NCBI GenBank assembly: GCA_001918155.1
Contig: MNFJ01000124.1
Span: forward strand, 1-44,598
Length of the DNA: 44,598 nucleotides
Source: Deltaproteobacteria bacterium 13_1_40CM_4_68_19
GTDB lineage: Bacteria > Myxococcota > Myxococcia > Myxococcales > 40CM-4-68-19
Reading direction: 5' to 3'
Positions within the stretch are counted from its first letter, which is position 1, and every line of letters begins with the position of its first letter. The position numbers and the translations under genes are program-made. The notes beneath the pieces are model-generated. The model saw only the letters and a list, made by a program, of their open reading frames with translations. It had not been told where the DNA came from and did no database searches. Positions 12,081 through 24,195 of this stretch are shown in pieces.

Positions 12081-13163
12081 TCAGGCCATCGCCACCAGGC
12101 GCACGAGAGCGCCGAACGCTCCGGGAATGGCGGATACCGACCGGAGCGCGGCACGCCGCAGCGCCGGCCTTCGGGAGAGCGCCACCAGCGCATGTGCGGG
12201 CAGCGCATACTGCAGCCACCGGGCGCGCAGCCGTTCGTCGTACCGGCGCAACGCCGGACCGAGATCGAGGGACAGATCGTCCGGCAGCGATTCCATCAGG
12301 ACGCTCGAAGCCGCGAACGCGAGGGAGAGCCCCTGCCCGGTGATGGCGTCGACGTATCCGGCGGCGTCCCCGACGAGCGCGAGCCGCTCCGCCCACCTCG
12401 CGCGCGCTCTCTGCAGCAGGGGTCCGGCCCCGCGCAGGTCGGAGTCGACGCTTGCGCCGGCGAGCCGCTCGCGCAGAGCGGGAAACGGAGCCAGCAGATC
12501 GTCGAAATCCCTCGCGCCATCGCGATCGTGCAGCAGCGCCACGTTGATGCTCCGGGGCCCGACCGGCGTCACGTACGCCTCGATCCGGGGCGCCCAGTAC
12601 ACCTCGACGAAATCCGTCCAGGGCGCGAGCGCGAAATGCCGTCGAATGCCGAAACGCATCGGCCCGCTGCCGTTCCCCGCATCGAGTCCAGCCGCCCGGC
12701 GGAGCGGCGAATGCAGCCCGTCGGCGGCGATCAAGAGCCGCGCGTCGAGGACGCCGGAATCGGTGCCCACTTCGACGGCGTCGAAGCGAGGATGCGTGGC
12801 CAGGACCGTTCCGCGCCGCAGATCGGCCCCCGCCGCGGTCGCCCGCTCCCGCAGGGCCTCCGCGAGGACGGTCCGACGGATCCCCATTCCAGGGCGGCCA
12901 CCGAACTGCCCCTCGAGGACGGTTCCGTCCTCCTCCAGGTAGCGGATGCCGCGCAGGGACGCGCTGCCGCCCTGCGGGATCCTCGCGCCCAGCCGCTCGA
13001 GCTCGTGCGCGCCGGCGGGCATCAGTCCCTCTCCGCAGGCCTTGTCGGGAACGGAGGCGCTGCGCTCGAGGAGCAAGGTGCGCAGCCCGCGTTCCGCGGA
13101 GCGGATGGCCGCGGCGAGGCCCGCCGGGCCGCCCCCGGCGATGACCACGTCCGTCATCACCAT
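12081..13163 (-). CDS. FAD-dependent oxidoreductase (geranylgeranyl reductase/aromatic hydroxylase type)
   Basis: Protein of 360 residues. The N-terminal Rossmann motif IAGGGPAGLAAAIRSAERG and the later GDAAGYVDAITGQG flavin motif place it in the p-hydroxybenzoate hydroxylase/geranylgeranyl reductase fold. DKACGEGLMP is characteristic of that group. The ATG at 13163 overlaps the end of the acyl-AMP ligase gene by 7 nt and has GAGG 5 nt upstream; an ATG at 13157 is the alternative. By analogy with the flavoprotein SrsC of Streptomyces srs clusters, it may hydroxylate or oxidise the phenolic product of the type III polyketide synthase (inference). Reduction of a lipid double bond is an alternative role. 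Confidence 0.87.
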   Translation of the reverse strand: MVMTDVVIAGGGPAGLAAAIRSAERGLRTLLLERSASVPDKACGEGLMPAGAHELERLGARIPQGGSASLRGIRYLEEDGTVLEGQFGGRPGMGIRRTVLAEALRERATAAGADLRRGTVLATHPRFDAVEVGTDSGVLDARLLIAADGLHSPLRRAAGLDAGNGSGPMRFGIRRHFALAPWTDFVEVYWAPRIEAYVTPVGPRSINVALLHDRDGARDFDDLLAPFPALRERLAGASVDSDLRGAGPLLQRARARWAERLALVGDAAGYVDAITGQGLSLAFAASSVLMESLPDDLSLDLGPALRRYDERLRARWLQYALPAHALVALSRRPALRRAALRSVSAIPGAFGALVRLVAMA

Positions 13164-14791
13164 TGCAGCCTCGCGAGCAGCGAGCGCGCGGTCTCCTTCG
13201 CTACGTGCAGCAGGGTGACGGGATCCGGAGGCCGCAGCTCGCCGGACTGCAGCTGGCGCAGCGCCTCGCCACGACGCAGCTTTCCGCTCGAAGTGCGCGG
13301 CAACGTCCCCGGCGCGAGCAGGTGGACCTCGTGGGGACGGATCCCCGTGCGCTCCGTCACGCGGGCGCGGATCTGCTCGGCGTCCGCGGCGTCGTCCGCC
13401 TCCACGAGCAGGGCCAGCTGCTCGCCTTCGGCCGTCGGGATGCCGACGGCCGCCGCGCACCCGGGGCGCACACCGGCGACGCCGTCGAGGGCTTCCTCGA
13501 ACTCCTGCGGCGAGTGGTTCGAGCCGCGCAGGATCACCACGTCCTTCGCGCGGCCCGAGACGAAGAGCTCGCCGTCCTGGAGGAAGCCGAGATCGCCCGT
13601 GTCCAGCCAGCCCTCGCGCAGCGTGGCGTCGGTCGCGGCGCGATTTCCGAAGTACTCGCGCATGACGGAAGGTCCGCGCACGAAGATCCGCCCTTCCCGC
13701 ACGTCCAGGTCGATGCCCGGGAGCGGCGCGCCGACCGAAGCCAGCTCGCGCGCCCCATGGGCTACGGTCCTGGGACCGCGGCCCGAGGGCGTGAACGTCA
13801 CCGCCAGGGACGCCTCCGACAGGCCGTAGACCGGCATCAGCGCCCGCGCGTCGAAGCCGTAGCTCGCAAACCGGTCCGAGAACCGGCGCAGCACCGCCGG
13901 AGCGACCGGCTCCGCTCCGTTCAGCGCGAACCGCCAGGAAGAGAGGTCGACGCCCTCCAGGTCGCGGTCGCGCACCCGGCGCAGGCACAGGCCATAGGCG
14001 AAGTTCGGGGCCACCGAGATCGTCGCGCGCTTGCGCGAGATCGCGCGCAACCAGATCGCGGGGCGGGCGAGGAAGAGCTCGGGAGGAATCAGCGTGAGCG
14101 GGCCGGGCCGGTCCACGGCGCACAGCAGGCAACCGATGAGCCCCATGTCGTGGTACAGCGGCAGCCAGGAAACGCCGGCCTGCGCGTCGTCGGTGGGTAC
14201 GATGGTCTCGATGGCCGCCACGTTCGCGAGCACGTTCGCGTGCGTCAGCGCGACCGGCTTCGGGTCCACCGTGGTCCCGCTGGAGAACTGGATCAGGAGC
14301 AGATCATCGGGTGCGGCGGGCGAGACCAGCGGCCGCGCATGCTGGAGCCGGCGAAGACCGAGCGGGGGCCGGGCCTCCGCGACGGCGACCCCGAGGAGCC
14401 GCGAGATGCGCGCGTCGCTGAGCACCAGGCGGGCACCGCAGGCGCGGATCATGCGCGCGGTCCGGCGGTGGAACTCGTCCATCCGCCCGAGGCGCAGGGG
14501 AGGGTAGAGCGGCACCGGGACCGCTCCGGCGAGCACGGCGCCGAAAAACGCGTCCATGAAGTCCGGTCCGGTGGGAAGGACGATCGCGACGCGGTCGCCG
14601 GGCGCGATCCCCTGCTCGCGCAGGCCTCCTGCCGCCCGTTGCGCGCGCTCGTACAGTTCGGCGAAGGAAAGGGGCGTCTCCCGTTCCTGCGCGTCGAGAA
14701 ACGTGAGCCCCCAACGCGACCGCGCCGCGTGCTCCAGGGCGGCGTGAAGCGTTTGGTGGCGCGGTGCAACCGCTGGACCGCCGGTCAACAC
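13157..14791 (-). CDS. Fatty acyl-AMP ligase (FAAL/FadD32-like)
   Basis: Adenylate-forming enzyme of 544 residues, expected to activate a fatty acid as acyl-AMP and pass it to the carrier protein encoded just upstream. Visible are the P-loop-like FSSGTTVDPKP (about 169-179), the WLPLYHDMGLIG motif (209-220) typical of FAALs, GWLDTGDLGF, and the C-terminal catalytic Lys in TSSGKLRR (K504). The GTG start at 14791 overlaps the acyl carrier protein gene by 7 nt. Whether it makes acyl-AMP only or can also make acyl-CoA depends on the FAAL-specific insertion, which cannot be judged confidently by eye. Context with a dedicated acyl carrier protein favours FAAL. Confidence 0.9.
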   Translation of the reverse strand: MLTGGPAVAPRHQTLHAALEHAARSRWGLTFLDAQERETPLSFAELYERAQRAAGGLREQGIAPGDRVAIVLPTGPDFMDAFFGAVLAGAVPVPLYPPLRLGRMDEFHRRTARMIRACGARLVLSDARISRLLGVAVAEARPPLGLRRLQHARPLVSPAAPDDLLLIQFSSGTTVDPKPVALTHANVLANVAAIETIVPTDDAQAGVSWLPLYHDMGLIGCLLCAVDRPGPLTLIPPELFLARPAIWLRAISRKRATISVAPNFAYGLCLRRVRDRDLEGVDLSSWRFALNGAEPVAPAVLRRFSDRFASYGFDARALMPVYGLSEASLAVTFTPSGRGPRTVAHGARELASVGAPLPGIDLDVREGRIFVRGPSVMREYFGNRAATDATLREGWLDTGDLGFLQDGELFVSGRAKDVVILRGSNHSPQEFEEALDGVAGVRPGCAAAVGIPTAEGEQLALLVEADDAADAEQIRARVTERTGIRPHEVHLLAPGTLPRTSSGKLRRGEALRQLQSGELRPPDPVTLLHVAKETARSLLARLQW

Positions 14792-15033: not shown

Positions 15034-15580
15034 GCGGAATGAACCTCGGGACGCCGGCGAATGCGCGCTCCCAGGTCGCCCCGAGCGCGCGTTCCTCCAC
15101 GCGGATGCGGATGCGCAGCAGCACCAGATTCAGCGCGGAGAAGACCACCGCGCAGATCCAGGCGCCGTGCAGGAGCGGAACGCACAGCATCTCGATCGCG
15201 ACCGCCACGTAGTTGGGATGCCGGACGAACCGATACGGACCAGCGCGGACCGGCGATTCGCCGGGAACCACGATCACGCGCACGTTCCAGCGCCATCCGA
15301 GCGTCGAGATCGCCGACCAGCGCAGCGCTTGCGCTCCGAGCGCTGCGGCCGCGCAGGCCCATCCCAGGGCGCCTGGGAATGGACGGCGCAGCAGCAGCAC
15401 CTCCGCCGCGCATGCGGGCAGGAACAGCGCGTGCATGGCCGCCATCCAACGGAAATGGGCCGCGCCGCTCTCGACGCCCGAATGCGCCAGCGCGATGCGC
15501 GCGTTCCTCCGGGACAGCAGCAGCTCCGCGATCCGCTCCCCGCCGAACAGCGCGAGAAATGCCAGGTACGCCGCTACCAT
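15026..15580 (-). CDS. Isoprenylcysteine carboxyl methyltransferase-family (SrsB-like) methyltransferase
   Basis: Membrane protein of 184 residues with four to five hydrophobic segments. It carries the ICMT/PEMT C-terminal signature GPYRFVRHPNYVAV and the downstream RVEERALGATW segment, which bind S-adenosylmethionine at the membrane. ICMT-family enzymes next to type III polyketide synthases (SrsB in Streptomyces) O-methylate alkylresorcinol-type products, and the same role is inferred here. The ATG at 15580 lies inside the last codons of the synthase gene (7-nt overlap), and its end overlaps the acyl carrier protein start by 8 nt. Confidence 0.88.
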   Translation of the reverse strand: MVAAYLAFLALFGGERIAELLLSRRNARIALAHSGVESGAAHFRWMAAMHALFLPACAAEVLLLRRPFPGALGWACAAAALGAQALRWSAISTLGWRWNVRVIVVPGESPVRAGPYRFVRHPNYVAVAIEMLCVPLLHGAWICAVVFSALNLVLLRIRIRVEERALGATWERAFAGVPRFIPHG

Positions 15581-16668
15581 TCGAGCAGCACCAGCTCCGA
15601 GCAGAAGCCGGGACCCATCGCCAGCAGCAGGCCGCGGTCGCCGGGACGCGCCTCGCCGGCAGCGAGGAGATCCGAGAGCACGAAGAGCACGGAAGCAGAA
15701 GAAAGGTTCCCGACGTTCTGCAGCGAGTCCCAGCTGCGCTGCATCGCGGAGCGCGGAATCTCCAGCGCCTCCTCGCATGCCTCGAGCACCTTCGGCCCGC
15801 CCGTGTGGCAGATGAAATGAGCGATGTCGCTCCGCTTCAGCTCCTGCGTTGCCAGGAAGGCATCGACGTCCGCGCGAAGCTTTTCCCGGACCAGCTGCGG
15901 GACGGCGGGCGAGAGCACAACCTTGAACCCGGAATCGACCACGTCCCATCCCATGACGCGCTCGCTGTCCGGGTAGAAGACGGAGCGCGTCGCGGCGATG
16001 CGCGGACCGTGGCCGCGCGCCCCGCCATCCAGCACCGCGGCGGCGGCGCCGTCGCCGAACAGCCCGCTGGCGATGATGTTCGGAATGGAGAGGTCCTCGC
16101 GCTGCAGGGTGAGCGAGCAGAGCTCGACGGCCAGCAACACGGCCACCTCGCCCGGGCCGCCGCGAAGGACGTCCGCGACGCGTGAAAGGCCCGCCGCACC
16201 CGCCACACAGCCGAGCCCGAAGATGGGGACGCGCTTCACGTCCGCGCGAAGGCCGAGGCGATCGACGAGCCGCGCGTCGATCGACGGCGTCGCGATGCCG
16301 GTGACGGTGACGAAATAGAGGTGGTCGACCTGCGCGGGCGTCACGTCCGCCGCGAGGAGGGCGCTCCGGACCGCCTCCGCCCCCAGATCGACCGCGGCCT
16401 CCGTCCAAGCGGCGTTGCGAGCGGCAAAGCTCCGCAGCTCGCGATACCGCTCCAGCGGCAGCGCCAGGTGCCGGCCTCCGACGCGCACCGCCCGGTGGAG
16501 TTGCTCCAGGCGCTCCAGGTTGAAATGCTTCTGACCCCACAGCTCACGAAACGCCGCGAGCAGCGTGTCCTGATCGGCGAAGTTCGGCGGCAAGGCCTGC
16601 GCGACCGAGAGGATGCGCGCCGTGGCCGCGCGACTTCCAGAGTCCTGGGCGTGAATCCGCTCGCGCAC
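15574..16668 (-). CDS. Type III polyketide synthase (chalcone/stilbene synthase family)
   Basis: Protein of 364 residues from a GTG at 16668. It has the full catalytic triad: Cys154 in FGLGCVAGAAG, His288 in FICHTGGPK and Asn321 in NVGNLSSAS, with spacing close to that of plant chalcone synthase. GLFGDGAAAAVL and the C-terminal MGPGFCSELVLLEW loop are also typical. The enzyme should extend a fatty acyl starter with malonyl-CoA and cyclise it to an alkylpyrone, alkylresorcinol or related phenolic lipid; which product cannot be told. It is the first gene of a five-gene overlapping operon with methyltransferase, carrier protein, acyl-AMP ligase and flavoenzyme. Confidence 0.93.
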   Translation of the reverse strand: MRERIHAQDSGSRAATARILSVAQALPPNFADQDTLLAAFRELWGQKHFNLERLEQLHRAVRVGGRHLALPLERYRELRSFAARNAAWTEAAVDLGAEAVRSALLAADVTPAQVDHLYFVTVTGIATPSIDARLVDRLGLRADVKRVPIFGLGCVAGAAGLSRVADVLRGGPGEVAVLLAVELCSLTLQREDLSIPNIIASGLFGDGAAAAVLDGGARGHGPRIAATRSVFYPDSERVMGWDVVDSGFKVVLSPAVPQLVREKLRADVDAFLATQELKRSDIAHFICHTGGPKVLEACEEALEIPRSAMQRSWDSLQNVGNLSSASVLFVLSDLLAAGEARPGDRGLLLAMGPGFCSELVLLEW

Positions 16669-16674
16669 GTACGT

Positions 16675-16679
16675 CCTCC
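16675..16679 (-). promoter_or_regulatory. Shine-Dalgarno site fixing the GTG start of the type III PKS
   Basis: GGAGG on the minus strand, 6 nt before the GTG at 16668. No ATG gives a protein of family length in this frame, so this site decides the start. Confidence 0.6.
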
Positions 16680-16780
16680 GCGCACCAGATGGCGCGGTGC
16701 GCAAGGGTAACTCGCCGATCGCCCGATCGCACACGAGACAAGGAATCAGCGACGTCGACGTTGACCGCGACGGCGACGGC

Positions 16781-17224
16781 TTATTCCCACAGCATCTGCT
16801 TGCCGGCCTTCGTGTTGACGACCGCGCGAAGCGCCGCGAGGTCGCTCTCCTCCGGCCGCCACTCGCGCAGGTGCGACAACCGTCGCATCGCGAACCGATG
16901 GCCGGCGGCGACCACCGAAGTCCCGGCATGGGGATGCGCCACGTGCGGCGTCTCGGAGCGCGCCAGCTTGGCGGTCTCGTGCCGGTGGTGCGGATCGACC
17001 CGGCCCTCGTCGTTCACGCGGATCTTCGAGAACCAGACGCGGGCGACCTGCGCCGGCTTCGCGCCGTGCAGCTCGAGCGACATCCCGATGCAGCGGACGA
17101 AGCCGTCCCCGTCGTGGCGGAGCGCGCGTTCGCCGGACAGGAAGCGCTGCATCCATGGATTGGAGATCCGGCGGATCGCTCCCGGGCCCGTGCGCTGGAA
17201 GAACCACAGCGTCCTGCGCGACAT
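16781..17224 (-). CDS. Hypothetical protein
   Basis: Protein of 147 residues from the ATG at 17224, preceded by GGGAGGAAC. It is not recognised. It is basic and Trp/His-rich, begins SRRTLWFFQRTGPGAIRR, contains a DPHHRHE segment, and is predicted soluble with no signal peptide. It lies 112 nt upstream of the type III polyketide synthase on the same strand and 55 nt downstream of the DUF488 gene. Cotranscription with either is possible but not shown. No catalytic motif could be assigned. Confidence 0.6.
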   Translation of the reverse strand: MSRRTLWFFQRTGPGAIRRISNPWMQRFLSGERALRHDGDGFVRCIGMSLELHGAKPAQVARVWFSKIRVNDEGRVDPHHRHETAKLARSETPHVAHPHAGTSVVAAGHRFAMRRLSHLREWRPEESDLAALRAVVNTKAGKQMLWE

Positions 17225-17279: not shown

Positions 17280-17654
17280 TCAGCCAGCGACAGCGTTTTC
17301 GATCAGCTCGCGAAGCAGCGAGCGGTGGCAGTGTGCGTCATCCGCGCAGGCGCTGGAGCAGAGCAGCGTGATGGTCTCACCTGCGCGCACCCGCGCAGCG
17401 AGCTCCTCGATGCGCGCGCGCCGTCCCGCGATCTCCGCCAGGAAGCGCTCCCGGTATTCCTCCCACGGGATCGGGGGCCTGTTCTTCCCGTACACGTTCG
17501 CATGCAGCGCACGACTCGGCCCTAGATCCGGGTCCCATTCGTCCCACGTCTCCTCCGATTTGCGCACCCCACGGGGCCGGTAACGGCAGACCAGCAGGCG
17601 CAGGCCGTCTCCCGGCAACCTGCGATCGTTCCAGCGGCGGGTGCGGATCGGCAT
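17280..17654 (-). CDS. DUF488-family protein
   Basis: Protein of 124 residues. It matches the DUF488/YeaO pattern: an N-terminal basic strand (MPIRTRRWND), LLVCRYRPRGVRKSEETWDE, DLGPSRALHA, WEEYRERFLAEI with an acidic/helical stretch, then ITLLCSSACADDAHCHRSLL near the C-terminus. The Cys-containing final segment resembles the usual TLLY..D...NHA region. Function of the family is unknown. It is divergent from the receiver-like protein gene, with 96 bases between the start codons. Confidence 0.82.
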   Translation of the reverse strand: MPIRTRRWNDRRLPGDGLRLLVCRYRPRGVRKSEETWDEWDPDLGPSRALHANVYGKNRPPIPWEEYRERFLAEIAGRRARIEELAARVRAGETITLLCSSACADDAHCHRSLLRELIENAVAG

Positions 17655-17750
17655 TCCGTAGTGTTCTAGAGACCCGCACGCGTTTGCCGCAGCGAATGCA
17701 AATTTCTCAACGGTCGGGGCGTGGGGTAGGGTCGACTCACGAGGAGGAAT

Positions 17751-19811
17751 GTGCCCGCCCCCCGTCTGCTGGTCCTCGCAGATCCGAAGATGCTCCCCGC
17801 GCTCGCCGGCGGGCTCCGCGACGGCGGCAGGTTCGACGTCACCGCGGTGTCGCTCGCCGACGCCGCCGCGGCGCAGGCGGCCGCGGCTGGAACCGATGCC
17901 GTCGCGGTCTTCTATGGCGGTCCGGGGGCACCGCTGGCTGCCACGCTGCAGGCCGTCGCGCCGAAGTTTCGGGAGCGCGGTGGCCGCGTGGTGGCGGTGC
18001 TGCAGCGCGAGCAGGCCGGGCAGCGCGACGAGTGCTTTCGCGCTGGCGCCAGCGACCTTCTCTTCATGCCGACGCCGAAGGACCAGTTCGTCGAGCGGTT
18101 GGCGGCGTCCGTCGCGCTCGCGTTCGGTGCCGGGGATGGCGCTCCCGCGGCCGTCGCGGTGGCGACGCGCAGCGCTCAGACGCGCCTCGACCGCGCCACC
18201 GTGTCGACGGCCGGCATCGAATCGCCTTCGCAGCTTCCGTTGAAGGCTGGCGAGACGGTGCGCCTCTCGTGGGAGACGTTCCAGAGTTGGGGCCTCGTCG
18301 TTCGCGGCGGCCCCTCCGCCCAGATCCGGTTCGCCGGTCTCACCCCGGATGAGGAAGGGAAGATTCGCGAGTGGGTGAAGTCCGGAGCGCAGCAGCAGCC
18401 CGCGGCGGCCCCAGCCTCGCCGCCGCGTCCCGCTGCGCCGTCCCCATCGCCGCAGCGGCCGCCGGCGACGCCGGCGCAGGTCACTCCCGCGCCACAGCGT
18501 TCGACGTCGACGCCGCAGCCGGACTCCACGCCCGTGAGATCGCCGCCGGCTGCGCAACCCTCCATGGGGGCCCGCGCGGCGCCGGTCGCCGGACCGCCGC
18601 CGGGATTCATGGATCGCAAGCCCGCTCGCCCACAGGGACGCGCGGCGTCGGCCGGTCCGGACGTCTCGCCGGCCTCGAGCGCGGGTGCCGCGCGCGCCGC
18701 GCCTGCGCTGTCGCCGACGCCCCCTCAGTCGCCCGGGGCCCGGCCCGCACCGCAGTCATCGAACGGGGACGGCGGGCTTTCGACGCTCTTCGACGCCGAC
18801 GGGGCCACGCCGGCGCCGGCGACCAAGCCACCGTCCCCGGCCAAGCCACCGCCCCCGCCGCCCGGACCTCCCTGGCCGGTGCCGGTGGCCATCGATGTCT
18901 GCAAGACGGCCGCCATGCACCTGCTGCAGGGGAAAAATCCAGGGCGCGACATCCCCACCAACGTCACCGCATCTGCGCGCAAGCTGACGGCATTGCTCAG
19001 CCTGGGCGAGCGCGCCTCGATCGAGAAGAGCGGGATCGATTCGCATTTCGTCCACGCGCTCGGCGCGAGGATCGCGCTCGAGGTAGCGACCGCCGAGGGT
19101 ACGCGGCTCGCCTCGGCGAACGTCAGCCCCACGGTCGACGCCGAGGCGATGGCCAGCTTGACGAAGCTTGCCGATGAAGCCGCCGGCCGCCTGCAGAAAG
19201 AGGCGAACGCGGCCATCGGCAAGGGCGAGGTGGAGAACCTGCAGCTCGTCACGGCGGCCAGCGCGTCGCTGAGCCGCGATCTGCTCAACCTGAAGGAGAC
19301 CGGCGATCGGTTTCGCGGCTTCGGTGCCGCCCCGCGGCTCGGGGCCGGGGCGCTCGATCCCGACGTGGTGCTCCCCGGCCAGCCCTTCCGCCCGAAGCCC
19401 CTTTCGCAGCAACAGACGCTGGCGCCGGTCAAGCCGGAGCTGCGCGATTTCCACGGTCTCGACGAGCGGCCTGGCCGCGCAAAGGGCGTGTTTGCGGTGC
19501 TCCTGGTGGCCGCGTGCGTCGGACTCGCCGTCTATTCCTTCCATTTCGCGATCCCGCAGCACGTGGAGGTCCAGGCCAGCTCGGCAGGACCGGGCGTGCA
19601 GCGCATAGACATCACCGGTCCCGCGGCGGTGGTGACGATCGCGCCGCAATGGTTGACGGCGTCCGAGACGAATCTGCCGAAGCTCGTCCGGGTGCTGCGG
19701 GCGCGGCAGGTGACGAAGGCGGTGTTGATGCTTGCGAACGGGACGGCCGCCGGGATCGTCGACGTCGCTGCCGGCAAGGCGACCGGAATGCCGGTGCCGG
19801 CGCCGAATTAG
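17751..19811 (+). CDS. Degenerate receiver/PilZ-like membrane protein with long Pro-rich linker
   Basis: Protein of 686 residues from a GTG at 17751 behind GAGGAGG. Residues 1-125 have a response-regulator alternation of strands and helices, but the phosphoacceptor site reads DAVAVFYGG, with no Asp at the expected place. Residues about 140-215 resemble the end of a PilZ domain (VSTAGIES, VRLSW, IRFAGLTPDEE) without canonical RxxxR and DxSxxG residues. A Pro/Ala-rich linker (about 215-375) leads to a helical domain (about 380-525), one transmembrane helix (579-601) and a C-terminal domain of about 80 residues outside the membrane. It may be a phosphorylation-independent scaffold or signalling protein (inference). 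A hairpin terminator follows. Confidence 0.75.
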   Translation: MPAPRLLVLADPKMLPALAGGLRDGGRFDVTAVSLADAAAAQAAAAGTDAVAVFYGGPGAPLAATLQAVAPKFRERGGRVVAVLQREQAGQRDECFRAGASDLLFMPTPKDQFVERLAASVALAFGAGDGAPAAVAVATRSAQTRLDRATVSTAGIESPSQLPLKAGETVRLSWETFQSWGLVVRGGPSAQIRFAGLTPDEEGKIREWVKSGAQQQPAAAPASPPRPAAPSPSPQRPPATPAQVTPAPQRSTSTPQPDSTPVRSPPAAQPSMGARAAPVAGPPPGFMDRKPARPQGRAASAGPDVSPASSAGAARAAPALSPTPPQSPGARPAPQSSNGDGGLSTLFDADGATPAPATKPPSPAKPPPPPPGPPWPVPVAIDVCKTAAMHLLQGKNPGRDIPTNVTASARKLTALLSLGERASIEKSGIDSHFVHALGARIALEVATAEGTRLASANVSPTVDAEAMASLTKLADEAAGRLQKEANAAIGKGEVENLQLVTAASASLSRDLLNLKETGDRFRGFGAAPRLGAGALDPDVVLPGQPFRPKPLSQQQTLAPVKPELRDFHGLDERPGRAKGVFAVLLVAACVGLAVYSFHFAIPQHVEVQASSAGPGVQRIDITGPAAVVTIAPQWLTASETNLPKLVRVLRARQVTKAVLMLANGTAAGIVDVAAGKATGMPVPAPN

Positions 19812-19913: not shown

Positions 19914-20453
19914 CTAGAATTCTGGGACCTCTACGACGTCGTAGGTCCCGCTGCCATGCAGCACTTCCGTATAGAGGTAGTTGCCGCTCAAGCCGGTCGC
20001 GCAGGTGATCGCGTCCGCTCCGAATCCAGGGAACGAGCCGCAGGCCTGCAGCGTCACGTCGTGTACCCTGCCGTCCGCGGCGGTCGCGCCCATCGTGTAC
20101 CAGTAACGCATGCGGATGGCGCCTTCCGGCGGGAATGGGAGATCGGTCCAGCCGCTCGCGTTCGTCACCCAAGGCGCGGACTCCCCTGGACGGATCGCGG
20201 AAGAGGGATTGATCGCGCTGACCGCCGAAGCATCGAGCGTCTGCGGGGTGGAGAAGGTCCCTTGGCTATCGTGCAGGTTCTTGAAGTACAGGCGGAACTT
20301 GCTCATGATGGCCTGCAGCTCGGAGCGGCGGCCCCGCGCCGTGATCCGCTGATATCCCGGGATCGCGATGCTCGAGAGGATCCCGATGAGCGCGACGACG
20401 ATCATCAGCTCGACCATCGTGAAACCGCGTGCCGGCCTGAACCTGCGTCCCAT
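19914..20453 (-). CDS. Type IV prepilin (PilA-like)
   Basis: Protein of 179 residues. A short basic leader (MGRRFRPARG) is followed by the class III prepilin signature FTMVELMIVVALIGI: cleavage is expected after the Gly, with Phe at +1 and Glu at +5. The rest forms the N-terminal helix and a soluble head with two Cys residues (CGSFPGFG and AITC) that could form a disulfide loop. It would be processed by PilD and assembled into a pilus or pseudopilus. No other pil genes are nearby. It begins 59 nt after the dinB stop on the same strand. No clear sigma-54 promoter was found. Confidence 0.9.
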   Translation of the reverse strand: MGRRFRPARGFTMVELMIVVALIGILSSIAIPGYQRITARGRRSELQAIMSKFRLYFKNLHDSQGTFSTPQTLDASAVSAINPSSAIRPGESAPWVTNASGWTDLPFPPEGAIRMRYWYTMGATAADGRVHDVTLQACGSFPGFGADAITCATGLSGNYLYTEVLHGSGTYDVVEVPEF

Positions 20454-20512
20454 GGTGCAATTGTGCGGTGCGAAACGCGCGCCGCGCAACATCCCCGATG
20501 GCCCACCCCGAC

Positions 20513-21667
20513 CTACTTCTTGCGCGCCTGCACCAGGTCGGCCGGCAAGACGGCGTCGGTGCCGAACTTTTCCGCGATCGCGTCGAGGGAGCGGTTCAGC
20601 CGCTCTCGCTTCTTCCTCTCGGCGTCGAACAGCCCCAGCTGGGGCGCGCCTGTGTGCAGGTCTCCGGCGTGCACGCCGGTCAGACGGACGGGGTAAGCTT
20701 CCACCTTACCGAGCAGCCGGACCGCGACGTGAAAGATCTCGGCGGAATCGTCGGTGGGCAGCGGCAGCGTCTCCTGACGAGTCACCACGCGGAAGTCGGC
20801 GTACTTGATCTTCAGATGGACCGAGCGCGCCTGCATGCCCGCCCTGCGCAGGCGGGCCCCCACCCGCAGCGCCTGCTCGTGGATGAACGGGAGCAGCTCT
20901 TCGCCTTCCAGATCGTCGTCGAACGTTTCCTCCGCGCCGATGCTCTTTGCCTCCACGTCCGGTTCAACGGCGCGCGGATCGATCCCGTTCGCCAGATCGT
21001 GCAGCCACGGCCCCATCGATCCGAGCTGCGCCTCCAGGTACGCCGGATCGGCGCGCGCCACGTCGCCCACCTTGCGCAGCCCGAGACGCTGCAGCTGTTC
21101 GTCGGTGCGCGGCCCGACGCCCCACAAGCGCGAAGCAGGCAGCGGGGCGAGGAACTCGCGCACCTGACCGCGCGGCACCTCGAGCAGCCCATCGGGCTTG
21201 CTCAGCTCGGAGGCGATCTTGGCGGCGAACTTCACCTCCGCGATCCCGACGCTGGCGGTGAGCTGCGTGCGCTGGCGGATGCGCGCCTTGATACCTTCGG
21301 CCTGCGCCCGCGGCGTCCCGAGCAGCGCCTGCGAGCGCGTCACGTCGAGGAAGGCTTCGTCGAGGGAGAGGCCCTCCACCTCGGGCGTGAAGGAATGGAA
21401 GATCTCGAAGACCTGATCGCTCACCGCGGAGTACTTCGCGAAGTCGGGCGGAACGACGATCAGCTGCGGGCAGAGCCGCAGCGCACGCGCCATCGGCATC
21501 GCCGAGCGGACGCCGAAGGGACGGGCCTCGTAGCTGGCCGCGCAGACCACGCCCCGCCGCGAGGCGCCTCCCACCGCCACTGCCTTGCCGCGCAGGCGCG
21601 GGTCGTCGCGCTGCTCGACGGACGCGTAGAACGCGTCCATGTCGACGTGCAGGATGGCCCGCTCCAT
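20513..21667 (-). CDS. dinB: DNA polymerase IV (Y-family translesion polymerase)
   Basis: Protein of 384 residues. It has the Y-family palm motifs HVDMDAFYASVEQRDDP at the N-terminus and LSLDEAFLDVT around residue 100, which supply the metal-binding acidic residues. The helix-hairpin-helix segment WGVGPRTDEQLQRLG and a little-finger domain follow. It bypasses damaged bases at low fidelity. The ATG at 21667 is preferred because DinB proteins begin directly before the HVDMDAFYA strand. The C-terminus has QLGLFD, a close match to the beta-clamp-binding consensus. It is divergent from the HDAC-fold gene across a 25-bp gap holding a symmetrical ATAGTA element; no LexA box was recognised. Confidence 0.93.
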   Translation of the reverse strand: MERAILHVDMDAFYASVEQRDDPRLRGKAVAVGGASRRGVVCAASYEARPFGVRSAMPMARALRLCPQLIVVPPDFAKYSAVSDQVFEIFHSFTPEVEGLSLDEAFLDVTRSQALLGTPRAQAEGIKARIRQRTQLTASVGIAEVKFAAKIASELSKPDGLLEVPRGQVREFLAPLPASRLWGVGPRTDEQLQRLGLRKVGDVARADPAYLEAQLGSMGPWLHDLANGIDPRAVEPDVEAKSIGAEETFDDDLEGEELLPFIHEQALRVGARLRRAGMQARSVHLKIKYADFRVVTRQETLPLPTDDSAEIFHVAVRLLGKVEAYPVRLTGVHAGDLHTGAPQLGLFDAERKKRERLNRSLDAIAEKFGTDAVLPADLVQARKK

Positions 21668-21673
21668 CGGCGC

Positions 21674-21686
21674 GGCATAGTATGCC
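21674..21686. promoter_or_regulatory. Symmetric GGCATA-G-TATGCC element between divergent dinB and HDAC genes
   Basis: Perfect 6-bp arms around one base fill half of the 25 bases separating the two start codons. The element contains TACTAT on the minus strand and TAGTAT on the plus strand, each placed where a -10 box would give a nearly leaderless transcript. It could be a shared operator or a bidirectional -10. No -35 box was identified. Confidence 0.4.
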
Positions 21687-21692
21687 CCCCGG

Positions 21693-23438
21693 ATGCTGGC
21701 GAGCATGGAAAACCGTGTGCGCCGCTGGCTCTACGGGCGCGATCTCGCCGTCTGGTATGCGCCCGAGTACCGCTGGCCGCTCAGCGCGCTCGAGGCGCGA
21801 ACCGGGTTCCAGACCCGCCGGGCGGCCTTCGCGCTCTGGTACCTGCTCGAGCGCCGCGCGCTCGGCCGGCGGAATCTCCGTCGACGCCGCCGTGCCGAGT
21901 ATCAGGAGCTGGCCCGCGTCCATACGCCCGAGCTGCTCGATTCCCTGGGGCGGCCGGACACGCTTGCGCGCGTATTCAGCGTCGACCCCTCCGACGTTCC
22001 GGTCGACGAGGTGATGAGCTCGGTGCGCCTGGTCTGCGGCGCCACCATCGCCGCCGCGCGCGAGATGCTCTCCGGCGCGGGCCCGCGAGAGGTCGGCCGG
22101 CGCGCGCTCAATCTTCTCGGCGGATTCCACCACGCGACCCCGGATGTGCCGGGCGGGTTCTGCCCGGTGAACGACGTGGCCATCGCGATCGCCGCGGTGC
22201 GCGCCGAGGGATTTCGCGGGCGCGTGCTGGTGCTCGATCTGGACGCCCATCCGCCCGACGGCACCGCGGCGTGCCTGGCTCGCGATCCGTCGTACTGGAT
22301 CGGATCGATCTCCGGATCGGACTGGGGGGCGATCCCCAACGCCGACGAGACCGTGCTGCCCGAGCGGGCCGGCGACGCGGAATATCTCGCGGCGCTCGAC
22401 GCGCTCCTCGAGCGCATGCCGCACGGGGAGCTGGCGTTCGTGCTCGCGGGAGGCGACGTGCTGGCCGGAGATCCGGTCGGCCAGCTCGGGCTTTCCCTCG
22501 AAGGGTGCCGGGAGCGCGACCTGCGCGTGGCGGACGCATTGGTTCGCGTGCCTTCGGTCTGGCTTCCTGCCGGCGGGTACACGCTCGACGCCTGGAAGGT
22601 GCTGGCCGGGACCGGTCTCGCGCTCGCGCTCAGGAGCCGGTCGCGGATCGCGCGCGACTACGATCCGCTGGTCGCCAGGTTCTCCGCCATCTCGCGCACG
22701 CTCGCTCCCCAGGACCTGGGCGAGGCGACGACGGAGATGGACGGCGTCGCCGAGCAGCTCGGAATCGCCACGCCGCGCCGGCGCCTGCTGCTCGGGTTCT
22801 ATAGCGCCGAGGGCCTGGAACACGCGCTGGAGCGGTACGGCATCCTCGGCGAGCTGCGGCGGATGGGGTACGGCCCGTTCCGCGTCGAGGTGCAGGACGA
22901 GGGAGTGGGGCAGAGCGCGAGGCTCCTCGACGTGCCGGGCGGGCAGGCCTTGATCGAGACCGTGTTCGAGCGCCGCGAGGTCGCCGGCGCGCAGATGCTC
23001 TACGTGCACTGGCTTGCGCTTCGCAACCCTCGCGCCCGGTTCTCGGACGAGCGCCCGCAACTACCCGGCCAGGACGTGCCGGGACTCGGGCTGGCGCGCG
23101 AGATGGCGGAGCTGCTCTCGCGGATGGCGGCGCGCCTTGGCCTGGAAGGGGTCGCGTTCCGGCCCTCGCCCTACCACCTGGCGTTCCGTGGGCGCGAGGT
23201 GATGCGCTTCGTCGACCCGGCGCGGCAGGGCCGCTTCGAGGCGCTGGTCGATCTGCTGAAGGACGTCCCTCTGGTCGACGCGACGCGGGCGGTGGCCGAA
23301 GGCCGCATCCGGCTGAACGGCGCGCCGTACTCCTGGGAGACCGACGAGATGGTGAGATGGCTCGAGCCACGCCCTGACGATCGCGCCGCGATCGACCAGG
23401 CGAAGGAGGCTTCTCACTTCACGATCGCTGGGGTGTAG
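21693..23438 (+). CDS. Histone-deacetylase-fold amidohydrolase with an uncharacterised C-terminal half
   Basis: Protein of 581 residues; an ATG at 21705 would shorten it by four. Residues about 1-320 are a class II/IV-like HDAC domain. It has the charge-relay pair in GGFHHATPD (H146, H147), zinc ligands in LDLDAHPPDG (D184, H186) and AGDPVGQL (D260), and the catalytic Tyr296 in PAGGYTLD. Zn-dependent deacetylation of acetyl-lysine, acetylpolyamine or a small amide is expected. Residues about 345-581 form a second region containing LPGQDVPGLGLAREM and FVDPARQGRFEAL that I do not recognise. The gene starts 25 bp from dinB, transcribed away from it. Confidence 0.85.
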   Translation: MLASMENRVRRWLYGRDLAVWYAPEYRWPLSALEARTGFQTRRAAFALWYLLERRALGRRNLRRRRRAEYQELARVHTPELLDSLGRPDTLARVFSVDPSDVPVDEVMSSVRLVCGATIAAAREMLSGAGPREVGRRALNLLGGFHHATPDVPGGFCPVNDVAIAIAAVRAEGFRGRVLVLDLDAHPPDGTAACLARDPSYWIGSISGSDWGAIPNADETVLPERAGDAEYLAALDALLERMPHGELAFVLAGGDVLAGDPVGQLGLSLEGCRERDLRVADALVRVPSVWLPAGGYTLDAWKVLAGTGLALALRSRSRIARDYDPLVARFSAISRTLAPQDLGEATTEMDGVAEQLGIATPRRRLLLGFYSAEGLEHALERYGILGELRRMGYGPFRVEVQDEGVGQSARLLDVPGGQALIETVFERREVAGAQMLYVHWLALRNPRARFSDERPQLPGQDVPGLGLAREMAELLSRMAARLGLEGVAFRPSPYHLAFRGREVMRFVDPARQGRFEALVDLLKDVPLVDATRAVAEGRIRLNGAPYSWETDEMVRWLEPRPDDRAAIDQAKEASHFTIAGV

Positions 23439-23492: not shown

Positions 23493-24158
23493 CTACGCCA
23501 GGTCGATGCGCTGGATTGCGTGGTACGGCACGATCGTGAGCCGATCGCTGTCCAGCTTCAGCACGACCGAATATCCCGCTGCGTGGTGGTCCATCTGGAG
23601 GATGCGGCCGGCCACCGACTGCCCGCCGGAAAGGTGCAGCATCACCGGGCGCAGCTCGTCGGCAAGGGCCTTCAGGTTCAGCGTGTGCGCCCCCGTGGCC
23701 TCGATGCTGAATGCCACCGCCTCACGGTACAGCTCGTTCGTGGTGCGCAGGCGGGAGGCGACAATGCCTGCCATGTTGCGGAAGAACGCCGCCGCGATGT
23801 CCGGGTGCTCGCGCTGCACCTTGGCGAAGCTCTGCCGCGAAAGCACCAGGAATTCGCTGGCCTCGGTGGTACGCGCGGTGGCGCTGCGGCGCGCGCCGTC
23901 GATGAAGCTCATCTCGCCGATCACGTCGCCGGGCCCGAACGAGGCCAGCGACCGGTCGACGTCGCCGCGGATGTTCTTGAAGATGTCCACCCGGCCGCTC
24001 TGGACGATGAACAGCGAGTCGCCCGCGTCGTTCTCCCGGAACAGCTCCTCGCCGCCGACGAGATTGCGCTCCTCGCAGGCGTCGAGGACCACGTCGGCAT
24101 CCTCGGACGTGAGCTCGGCGAACAGGCGCCAGCGGTTCAGCTTGCCTTCGTCGGCCAC
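23493..24158 (-). CDS. Cyclic nucleotide-binding protein with Hfq/Sm-like C-terminal domain
   Basis: Protein of 221 residues. The GTG at 24158 is taken as start because the only upstream in-frame option is a TTG. Residues about 8-125 are a CAP-type cNMP-binding domain with the phosphate-binding cassette GDVIGEMSFIDGARRSATA (78-96). There is no winged-helix DNA-binding domain. Instead, after a helical segment, residues about 168-220 read like a small Sm fold: RPVMLHLSGGQSVAGRILQM followed by VVLKL and YHAIQRIDL, comparable to the PVSIYL...L.G.I and YKHAIS motifs of Hfq. Ligand-controlled RNA or protein binding is a hypothesis. It follows the ketopantoate reductase-family gene by 37 nt. Confidence 0.8.
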   Translation of the reverse strand: MADEGKLNRWRLFAELTSEDADVVLDACEERNLVGGEELFRENDAGDSLFIVQSGRVDIFKNIRGDVDRSLASFGPGDVIGEMSFIDGARRSATARTTEASEFLVLSRQSFAKVQREHPDIAAAFFRNMAGIVASRLRTTNELYREAVAFSIEATGAHTLNLKALADELRPVMLHLSGGQSVAGRILQMDHHAAGYSVVLKLDSDRLTIVPYHAIQRIDLA

Positions 24159-24195
24159 GCCTCGTGCATCGCATGGACCCCGAGAGGACCGCAAG

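Follow-up and report, generated by a model that had tools for sequence, protein, structure and literature searches.

A candidate docking protein built from a pseudo-receiver, a PilZ-derived domain and a PPGF-bearing linker in a family of Myxococcales

Receiver domains lacking the phosphorylatable aspartate, the pseudo-receivers, are put at about 6% of bacterial receivers (PMC12632262), so that a degenerate receiver alone is ordinary. In FrzS of Myxococcus xanthus, a precedent from the phylum of the window, such a domain is reported to bind neither Mg nor Mg-BeF3 and to act through its output face (PMC1974792); it is described as binding SgmX, and FrzS as having a C-terminal coiled coil (PMC12632262). 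RomR of the same organism combines an N-terminal receiver with a proline-rich part and, as reported, has a phosphorylatable Asp53 (PMC3420945), and PlpA is described as having a PilZ-type domain that works without binding cyclic di-GMP (c-di-GMP) (PMC8316039). Here we analyse the gene at 17,751 to 19,811 of the forward strand of contig MNFJ01000124.1 of Deltaproteobacteria bacterium 13_1_40CM_4_68_19, the whole 44,598-nucleotide contig being referred to as the window. From its ancestry, the loss of signalling residues, the fixed replacements at their sites, purifying selection, a conserved linker motif and one membrane segment, all read from sequence, we suggest with a probability of roughly 0.5 that the product is a membrane-anchored docking protein which acts without aspartate phosphorylation or classical c-di-GMP binding. 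The protein resembles FrzS in its receiver fold without the phospho-aspartate, a domain that serves FrzS as a docking module. It differs in what follows: where FrzS has a coiled coil, the window protein shows none after its pseudo-receiver, but a PilZ-derived part, a linker, a helical region, a membrane helix and an outer domain. To our knowledge FrzS has no membrane helix, and we know of neither a PilZ domain nor a membrane helix in RomR. Unlike PlpA, the window protein carries its PilZ-derived part in a membrane protein, and it shares with RomR the N-terminal receiver and proline-rich part but not the phosphorylatable aspartate.

The open reading frame runs from a GTG start, preceded by GAGGAGG, through 686 codons free of internal stops and, judged by its orthologues and by dN/dS (below), is a real, conserved gene rather than a chance one. 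Among these soil bacteria related to Myxococcus, orthologues occur in all seven genomes of the genus and in 11 of the 12 of the family (own genome counted in both); the family genome without a match, G007, is 88% complete. The nearest named record is that of Deltaproteobacteria bacterium DP_13 (L002; 81% identity in the best segment), followed by Myxococcales bacterium MAG102 (L003; 56%). The window, contig C47 in its entirety, comes from a draft genome of 3.46 Mb that is 74.8% complete. An order-wide profile search matched 18 of 145 genomes, namely the 11 of the family, one genome of another family (G036, carrying the homologue L025) and six that matched in the receiver part alone. On reading, four of the latter look like ordinary winged-helix response regulators, and the other two (L028 and L031), read on an unsuitable frame, are given no class. 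The C-terminal half matched in 11 of 147 genomes of the class, every one within the window's family, and the last domain in 12 of 195 genomes of the phylum, all of the family or G036. These searches score the best candidates per genome (8 for the order, 15 for the C-terminal half in the class, 6 for the C-terminal match of L025 and 24 for the last domain in the phylum) and do not prove absence elsewhere. No Pfam or NCBIfam family scored over its cut-off on the window protein. Conservation was counted over 10 family rows, excluding L025 and a 202-residue C-terminal fragment from genome G001, which was also left out of the alignments; the linker count excludes L020 as well as L025, leaving nine rows.

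Residues 1–126 are a receiver fold. The family profile aligns with four ordinary receivers at 97% probability (hhalign, E 7.7e-11) and, against the Protein Data Bank (PDB), with the PmrA receiver (E 1.3e-6, positions 4–119). An AlphaFold2 (AF2) model of residues 1–216, built from three sequences (mean predicted local distance difference test (pLDDT) score 60.5, predicted template modelling score 0.60), contains five beta-alpha units with block pLDDT of 64–82 over residues 1–120. Foldseek listed 184 PDB matches for this model with E up to 0.001, and VIA-align superposed it on the TorR receiver with Z 14.7 (root-mean-square deviation 2.2, 117 residues aligned). Pilus proteins of the CpaE type also turn up in the fold and profile comparisons of this part. 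Four of the five phosphotransfer residues are replaced in every one of the 10 family rows, the second acidic residue, D11, alone being kept (10/10). In the window protein the first acidic residue has become A10, the Ser/Thr position is L84 or Q85, the Lys position is M106, and the phospho-aspartate position falls within F54-Y55-G56, aligners disagreeing by one or two residues; F54-Y55-G56, Q85 and M106 are identical in all 10 rows. There is no Asp among residues 50–61 of the window protein, and three of the 10 rows have one at position 59, in the loop beyond the site. By the definition given in PMC12632262 the domain has the fold and homology of a receiver and belongs to the aspartate-less subset of pseudo-receivers, as the original prediction had proposed from the FYGG turn. 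Elsewhere in the head, D11, D49, D93 and D102 are conserved aspartates. By element, the highest conservation lies in residues 76–105 (the loop preceding beta4 through to beta5), where successive elements score 93, 85, 100, 88, 97 and 95%; the beta1-alpha1 loop stands at 90%, alpha1 at 86%, alpha3 at 74% and alpha5 at 75%.

Residues 127–212 are, on sequence comparison, probably descended from a PilZ domain, because the homologue L025 passes the Pfam PilZ model in this part (PF07238, 26.3 bits against a cut-off of 22.5). Cut to the PilZ region, the hhalign comparison of the profile with PilZ domains of the own genome gave 50.5% probability with L025 included; without L025 its score, 19.5, still exceeded all 150 column shuffles (maximum 18.2, median 9.6). 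Other comparisons were weaker: L025 matches the myxobacterial PilZ model TIGR02266 under its cut-off (E 0.001), the uncut profile including L025 (A3), set against 12 of the own genome's 20 PilZ matches, reached 32% probability, and the best single PilZ locus of that genome scored 5.6 bits against the family profile. No PilZ protein is among the matches listed for the N-terminal model, which is uninformative given how poorly this part is modelled. The AlphaFold domain assignment that had been proposed as a check bears out the receiver half of the head and does not resolve a fold in the PilZ half. Of the two motifs said to be lost, RxxxR is indeed absent from residues 105–150 in all 10 rows (it is present in L025 and L079), and the Asp of (D/N)xSxxG is gone in all 10; its Ser/Thr and Gly are kept in all 10, however, so the second motif is incomplete rather than lost as predicted. 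Apart from this protein, the own genome holds 20 matches to TIGR02266 (L040–L059), five of them over the cut-off, with three proteins carrying two matches each. In one locus, L054 on contig C17, a Pro/Ala-rich linker joins a weak PilZ match (36.1 bits) to a part resembling, by eye, a DnaK-like chaperone; the fusion recalls the PilZ-DnaK proteins described for M. xanthus (PMC10313047).

The residues kept in the two modules bear on a different explanation, that the head is a ligand sensor whose old active site may have been remodelled into a pocket, binding either some other small molecule or, by an atypical mode, c-di-GMP, and passing its state to a partner. The residues round the old active site (D11, K13, F54-Y55-G56, Q85 and M106) are invariant, as expected of a new pocket, but packing explains this equally well; pseudo-receivers can bind c-di-GMP, as described for ShkA (PMC7010744), and the second PilZ motif still has its Ser/Thr and Gly, but RxxxR has gone from the whole family. 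We consider such a sensor unlikely, as an alternative to the docking protein proposed above.

Two homologues place the window family in a series with a single domain order. L079, from a genome of the same phylum (G149), has all the receiver residues and both PilZ motifs (Pfam 99.9 and 53.4 bits). L025, from another family of the order, has lost the acidic pair, the Ser/Thr and the Lys of its receiver, the phospho-site falling on His or on Asp according to the alignment used, but keeps RxxxR (as RGDQR) and DASASG in its PilZ part, spaced 21 residues apart as in L079. It has the receiver, PilZ part, linker, helical part, membrane segment and outer domain of the window protein in the same layout, and differs in its PilZ part, which passes Pfam with both motifs, and in lacking the PPGF motif of the linker. 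L025 matches residues 1–206 of the window protein at a pairwise E of 1.8e-19 and a family member in its C-terminal half at 3.6e-8, and L079 matches L025 over both domains at 1.2e-10; the window head and L079 showed no direct BLAST match to each other up to E 10. L079 thus resembles the window protein in its REC-PilZ two-domain core, linked through L025, and differs in keeping all signalling residues. PixA of M. xanthus, unlike these proteins, has the order PilZ-REC, keeps its residues and is reported to bind c-di-GMP (PMC8316039). The series runs, as aligned, from both sites canonical (L079) through a changed receiver (L025) to both changed (the family). Its apparent order of loss, receiver first and PilZ second, is a reading of the alignment and not of a tree. 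A repurposed signalling ancestry, from a REC-PilZ protein, is well supported by these sequences, because the alignment chain runs in one domain order and the changed receiver sites are fixed. The 'repurposed signalling scaffold' of the original prediction is upheld in its ancestry, the scaffold role being one that we infer.

The ratio of non-synonymous to synonymous substitution rates (dN/dS) is low in the head and the helical region in both comparisons made. Against L002 it is 0.17 in the receiver, 0.17 in the PilZ part, 0.45 in the linker, 0.15 in the helical region, 0.53 in residues 526–577, 0.25 in the membrane segment, 0.38 in the outer domain and 0.28 overall; the corresponding values against L010 are 0.20, 0.24, 0.33, 0.18, 0.22, 0.17, 0.42 and 0.26. 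Purifying selection acts on the receiver, the PilZ part and the helical region. Since the replacements are also fixed, we interpret the changes as remodelling and not decay. That the protein is a relic, a response regulator losing its function, would fit the lost catalytic residues and the lack of a Pfam match, but the three folded cytoplasmic parts show dN/dS of 0.15–0.24, no stop interrupts the matched frames of the genus and family genomes, and 52 of 216 positions are invariant over the 10 rows; we regard decay as very improbable.

The original prediction had described a Pro-rich linker of about 160 residues, and the linker indeed spans 157 (29% Pro, 21% Ala). Within it lies a linear motif, at residues 277–290, in which A277, P278, G281, P283, P284, G285, F286 and R289 are identical in 9/9 rows (AP..G.PPGF..R), against a background in the linker of a mean majority-residue fraction of 0.52 over 142 positions. 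PPG followed by a hydrophobic residue within a Pro-rich stretch, the pattern of a GYF ligand, occurs in 9 of 11 full-length rows; the PPGF motif is absent in L020 (genome G008) and L025. GltJ of M. xanthus is a protein that carries a GYF domain. In the plant PSIG1-SMG7 system, which is like the window protein in the PPGF sequence and unlike it in being a plant system, PPGF is reported to be needed for binding by a GYF domain (PMC5657617). A scan for PPGFx(D/E)R gave 13 matches in six of the seven genus genomes, six of them the gene or its orthologues, and one match for the backward-pattern control. We considered the pattern as a wider code word and rejected it: of the other seven matches, six gave a frame with the motif and one gave none, two resemble, by eye, a single pair of methyltransferase-like genes, and no common PPGF family came out of them.

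The linker leads into a predicted alpha-helical region (residues 376–521) and a box at residues 527–544, strongly conserved over nine rows; neither these nor the linker motif figured in the original prediction. A fold name for the helical region was tried and given up, the PDB matches listed for it including many designed helical proteins (best Z 13.3) and possibly reflecting only a common helical arrangement. The full-length AF2 model has a mean pLDDT of 41.1, and the profile of the C-terminal half found no convincing match in the PDB (best E 0.01, designed proteins). The one transmembrane helix that had been predicted is seen in hydropathy: a lone segment, about residues 578–598, exceeds 1.6 in the window protein, and across 11 rows the mean hydropathy of the best segment per row ranges over 1.89–2.75. 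The 88 residues beyond it probably lie outside, K+R numbering 3 in the 15 residues before the segment and 0 after it, but D+E numbering 4 before it. They are predicted to form beta-beta-alpha-beta-beta-beta, the second strand being followed by a short helix. This outer domain invites a further explanation, a transmembrane relay in which it would sense something in the periplasm and the head in the cytoplasm would respond, as the output, by binding or releasing a partner. It is predicted to be ordered alpha/beta (block pLDDT 68–81 over residues 611–680) and was found in 12 of 195 phylum genomes, all of the family or G036; but it belongs to the less constrained parts (dN/dS 0.38 and 0.42), unlike the head, and a flexible linker of 157 residues and the helical region separate the two. 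We find a relay decidedly unlikely.

For the docking protein, we envisage that an ancestral REC-PilZ response regulator became a membrane-anchored adaptor, its receiver no longer taking up phosphate and its PilZ remnant no longer having the classical c-di-GMP site, and both would be kept as docking surfaces. The beta4-alpha4-beta5 stretch of the receiver, among the most conserved, may form part of the docking surface; the linker would allow the cytoplasmic head to extend away from the membrane and would show its PPGF motif to a second partner; and the helical region, the membrane helix and the small outer domain would tie the protein to an envelope structure. Activity would then be set by the presence and place of the protein rather than by phosphate or c-di-GMP, and a tie to motility or pili may be involved. 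A stronger version, doubtful in our view, is that in an inner-membrane docking protein specific to this lineage first the receiver and then the c-di-GMP module became fixed protein-binding surfaces, that PPGF is read by a GYF-like bacterial domain, and that the former response regulator now serves as a structural adaptor between a cytoplasmic machine and the envelope. Each degenerate module alone is of a known kind, and their combination with a fixed PPGF motif appears new: among the results listed by our literature searches, nothing described a REC-PilZ membrane protein of such a type, or any membrane protein in which both modules are changed and the linker has a fixed PPGF motif.

Several observations weigh against the docking protein as proposed. 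D11 and the 90%-conserved beta1-alpha1 loop are kept, and the second PilZ motif retains its Ser/Thr and Gly, all of which could mean ligand binding. Without L025 the PilZ region scores only 7.0% by hhalign, and in the model this part mostly has pLDDT of 50 or less, with its beta-barrel not resolved. A scan of the own genome (74.8% complete) for GYF_2 gave no match, the control, over 14 genomes, being silent too. One family member, L020 of G008, is without the helical region, the PPGF motif and the 527–544 box, so that neither of the first two is needed everywhere. No same-strand neighbour gene suggests an operon partner.

Coordinates of the features described in the text (positions in the window).
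Feature	Residues	Position	Strand	Basis
Whole gene, 686 aa, GTG start		17751..19811	+	open reading frame and orthologues
Likely ribosome-binding site GAGGAGG		17741..17747	+	read from sequence
Pseudo-receiver domain	1-126	17751..18128	+	profile, PDB and model matches
F54-Y55-G56 at the phospho-Asp site, invariant in 10/10 family rows	54-56	17910..17918	+	alignment, conservation
M106 replacing the conserved Lys, invariant in 10/10 family rows	106	18066..18068	+	alignment, conservation
PilZ-derived domain	127-212	18129..18386	+	profile comparisons; fold not resolved by model
DxSxxG remnant T-V-S-T-A-G	150-155	18198..18215	+	alignment
Pro/Ala-rich linker	217-373	18399..18869	+	composition
Linear motif A-P-x-x-G-P-P-P-G-F-x-D-R-K	277-290	18579..18620	+	conservation; DNA of core also matched
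Predicted alpha-helical region	376-521	18876..19313	+	model (low confidence), conservation
Conserved box APRLGxGxLDPDVVLPGQ	527-544	19329..19382	+	conservation
Single transmembrane segment	about 578-598	19482..19544	+	hydropathy
C-terminal alpha/beta domain, probably periplasmic	599-686	19545..19808	+	AF2 model; 88 residues

Around the gene, a DUF488 gene (17280–17654, minus strand; PF22751, 120.6 bits; DUF488-N3 'active subclade') lies divergently upstream and stands beside the gene in 8 of the 10 family genomes that have the upstream flank; the match in G009 covers 21 residues only, and G008 has none. A prepilin gene (19914–20492, minus strand) follows convergently and adjoins the gene in 9 of 11 family genomes, G009 being counted on a second contig that starts with the tail of the gene; in NCBIfam it best matches the PilA model for myxobacteria, scoring 46.8 bits where the cut-off is 400. 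dinB (20513–21706, minus strand) lies nearby in 10 of 11. The window is included in all three counts. The prepilin gene is missing there in G008, and both it and dinB in G011; none of the three genes was found beside L025. CpaE is a pilus protein with an ATPase domain. This arrangement raises the possibility, which overlaps with docking, that the protein belongs to a type IV pilus system in the manner of CpaE-type proteins and the FrzS pseudo-receiver and is linked to the prepilin gene that sits directly behind its own. CpaE-type proteins do appear among the fold and profile matches, but no ATPase domain is seen in the window protein and the match amounts to the shared receiver fold; the genes being convergent, they are not co-transcribed, the prepilin gene is not beside the gene in G008 or G011, and dinB and DUF488 are kept in the same stretch, so that the linkage may be plain synteny. 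A pilus part is, to our mind, distinctly improbable. A sigma-70 promoter scan around the gene found none, and none of the three terminator-like sites found lies directly 3' of it.

The window also contains, as separate observations, a plus-strand gene at 21693–23438 with a histone-deacetylase-like domain in residues 42–302 of its 581 and no Pfam match in the rest, and a minus-strand gene for a cyclic-nucleotide-binding domain protein (23493–24194) that is also present in L002, L003, L037, L038 and L039. A type III polyketide synthase gene (15574–16929, minus strand; chalcone/stilbene synthase domains) and, at 12081–14791, genes read by eye as acyl-activating enzyme and oxidoreductase may together be a small biosynthetic cluster.

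The mechanism by which pseudo-receivers are turned on and off is described as an open question (PMC12632262). The L079, L025 and window-family proteins offer three states of one layout, in which binding surfaces can be compared along the series, and the short stretches in the alpha4-beta5 region, the PPGF motif and the 527–544 box would provide handles for finding partners.
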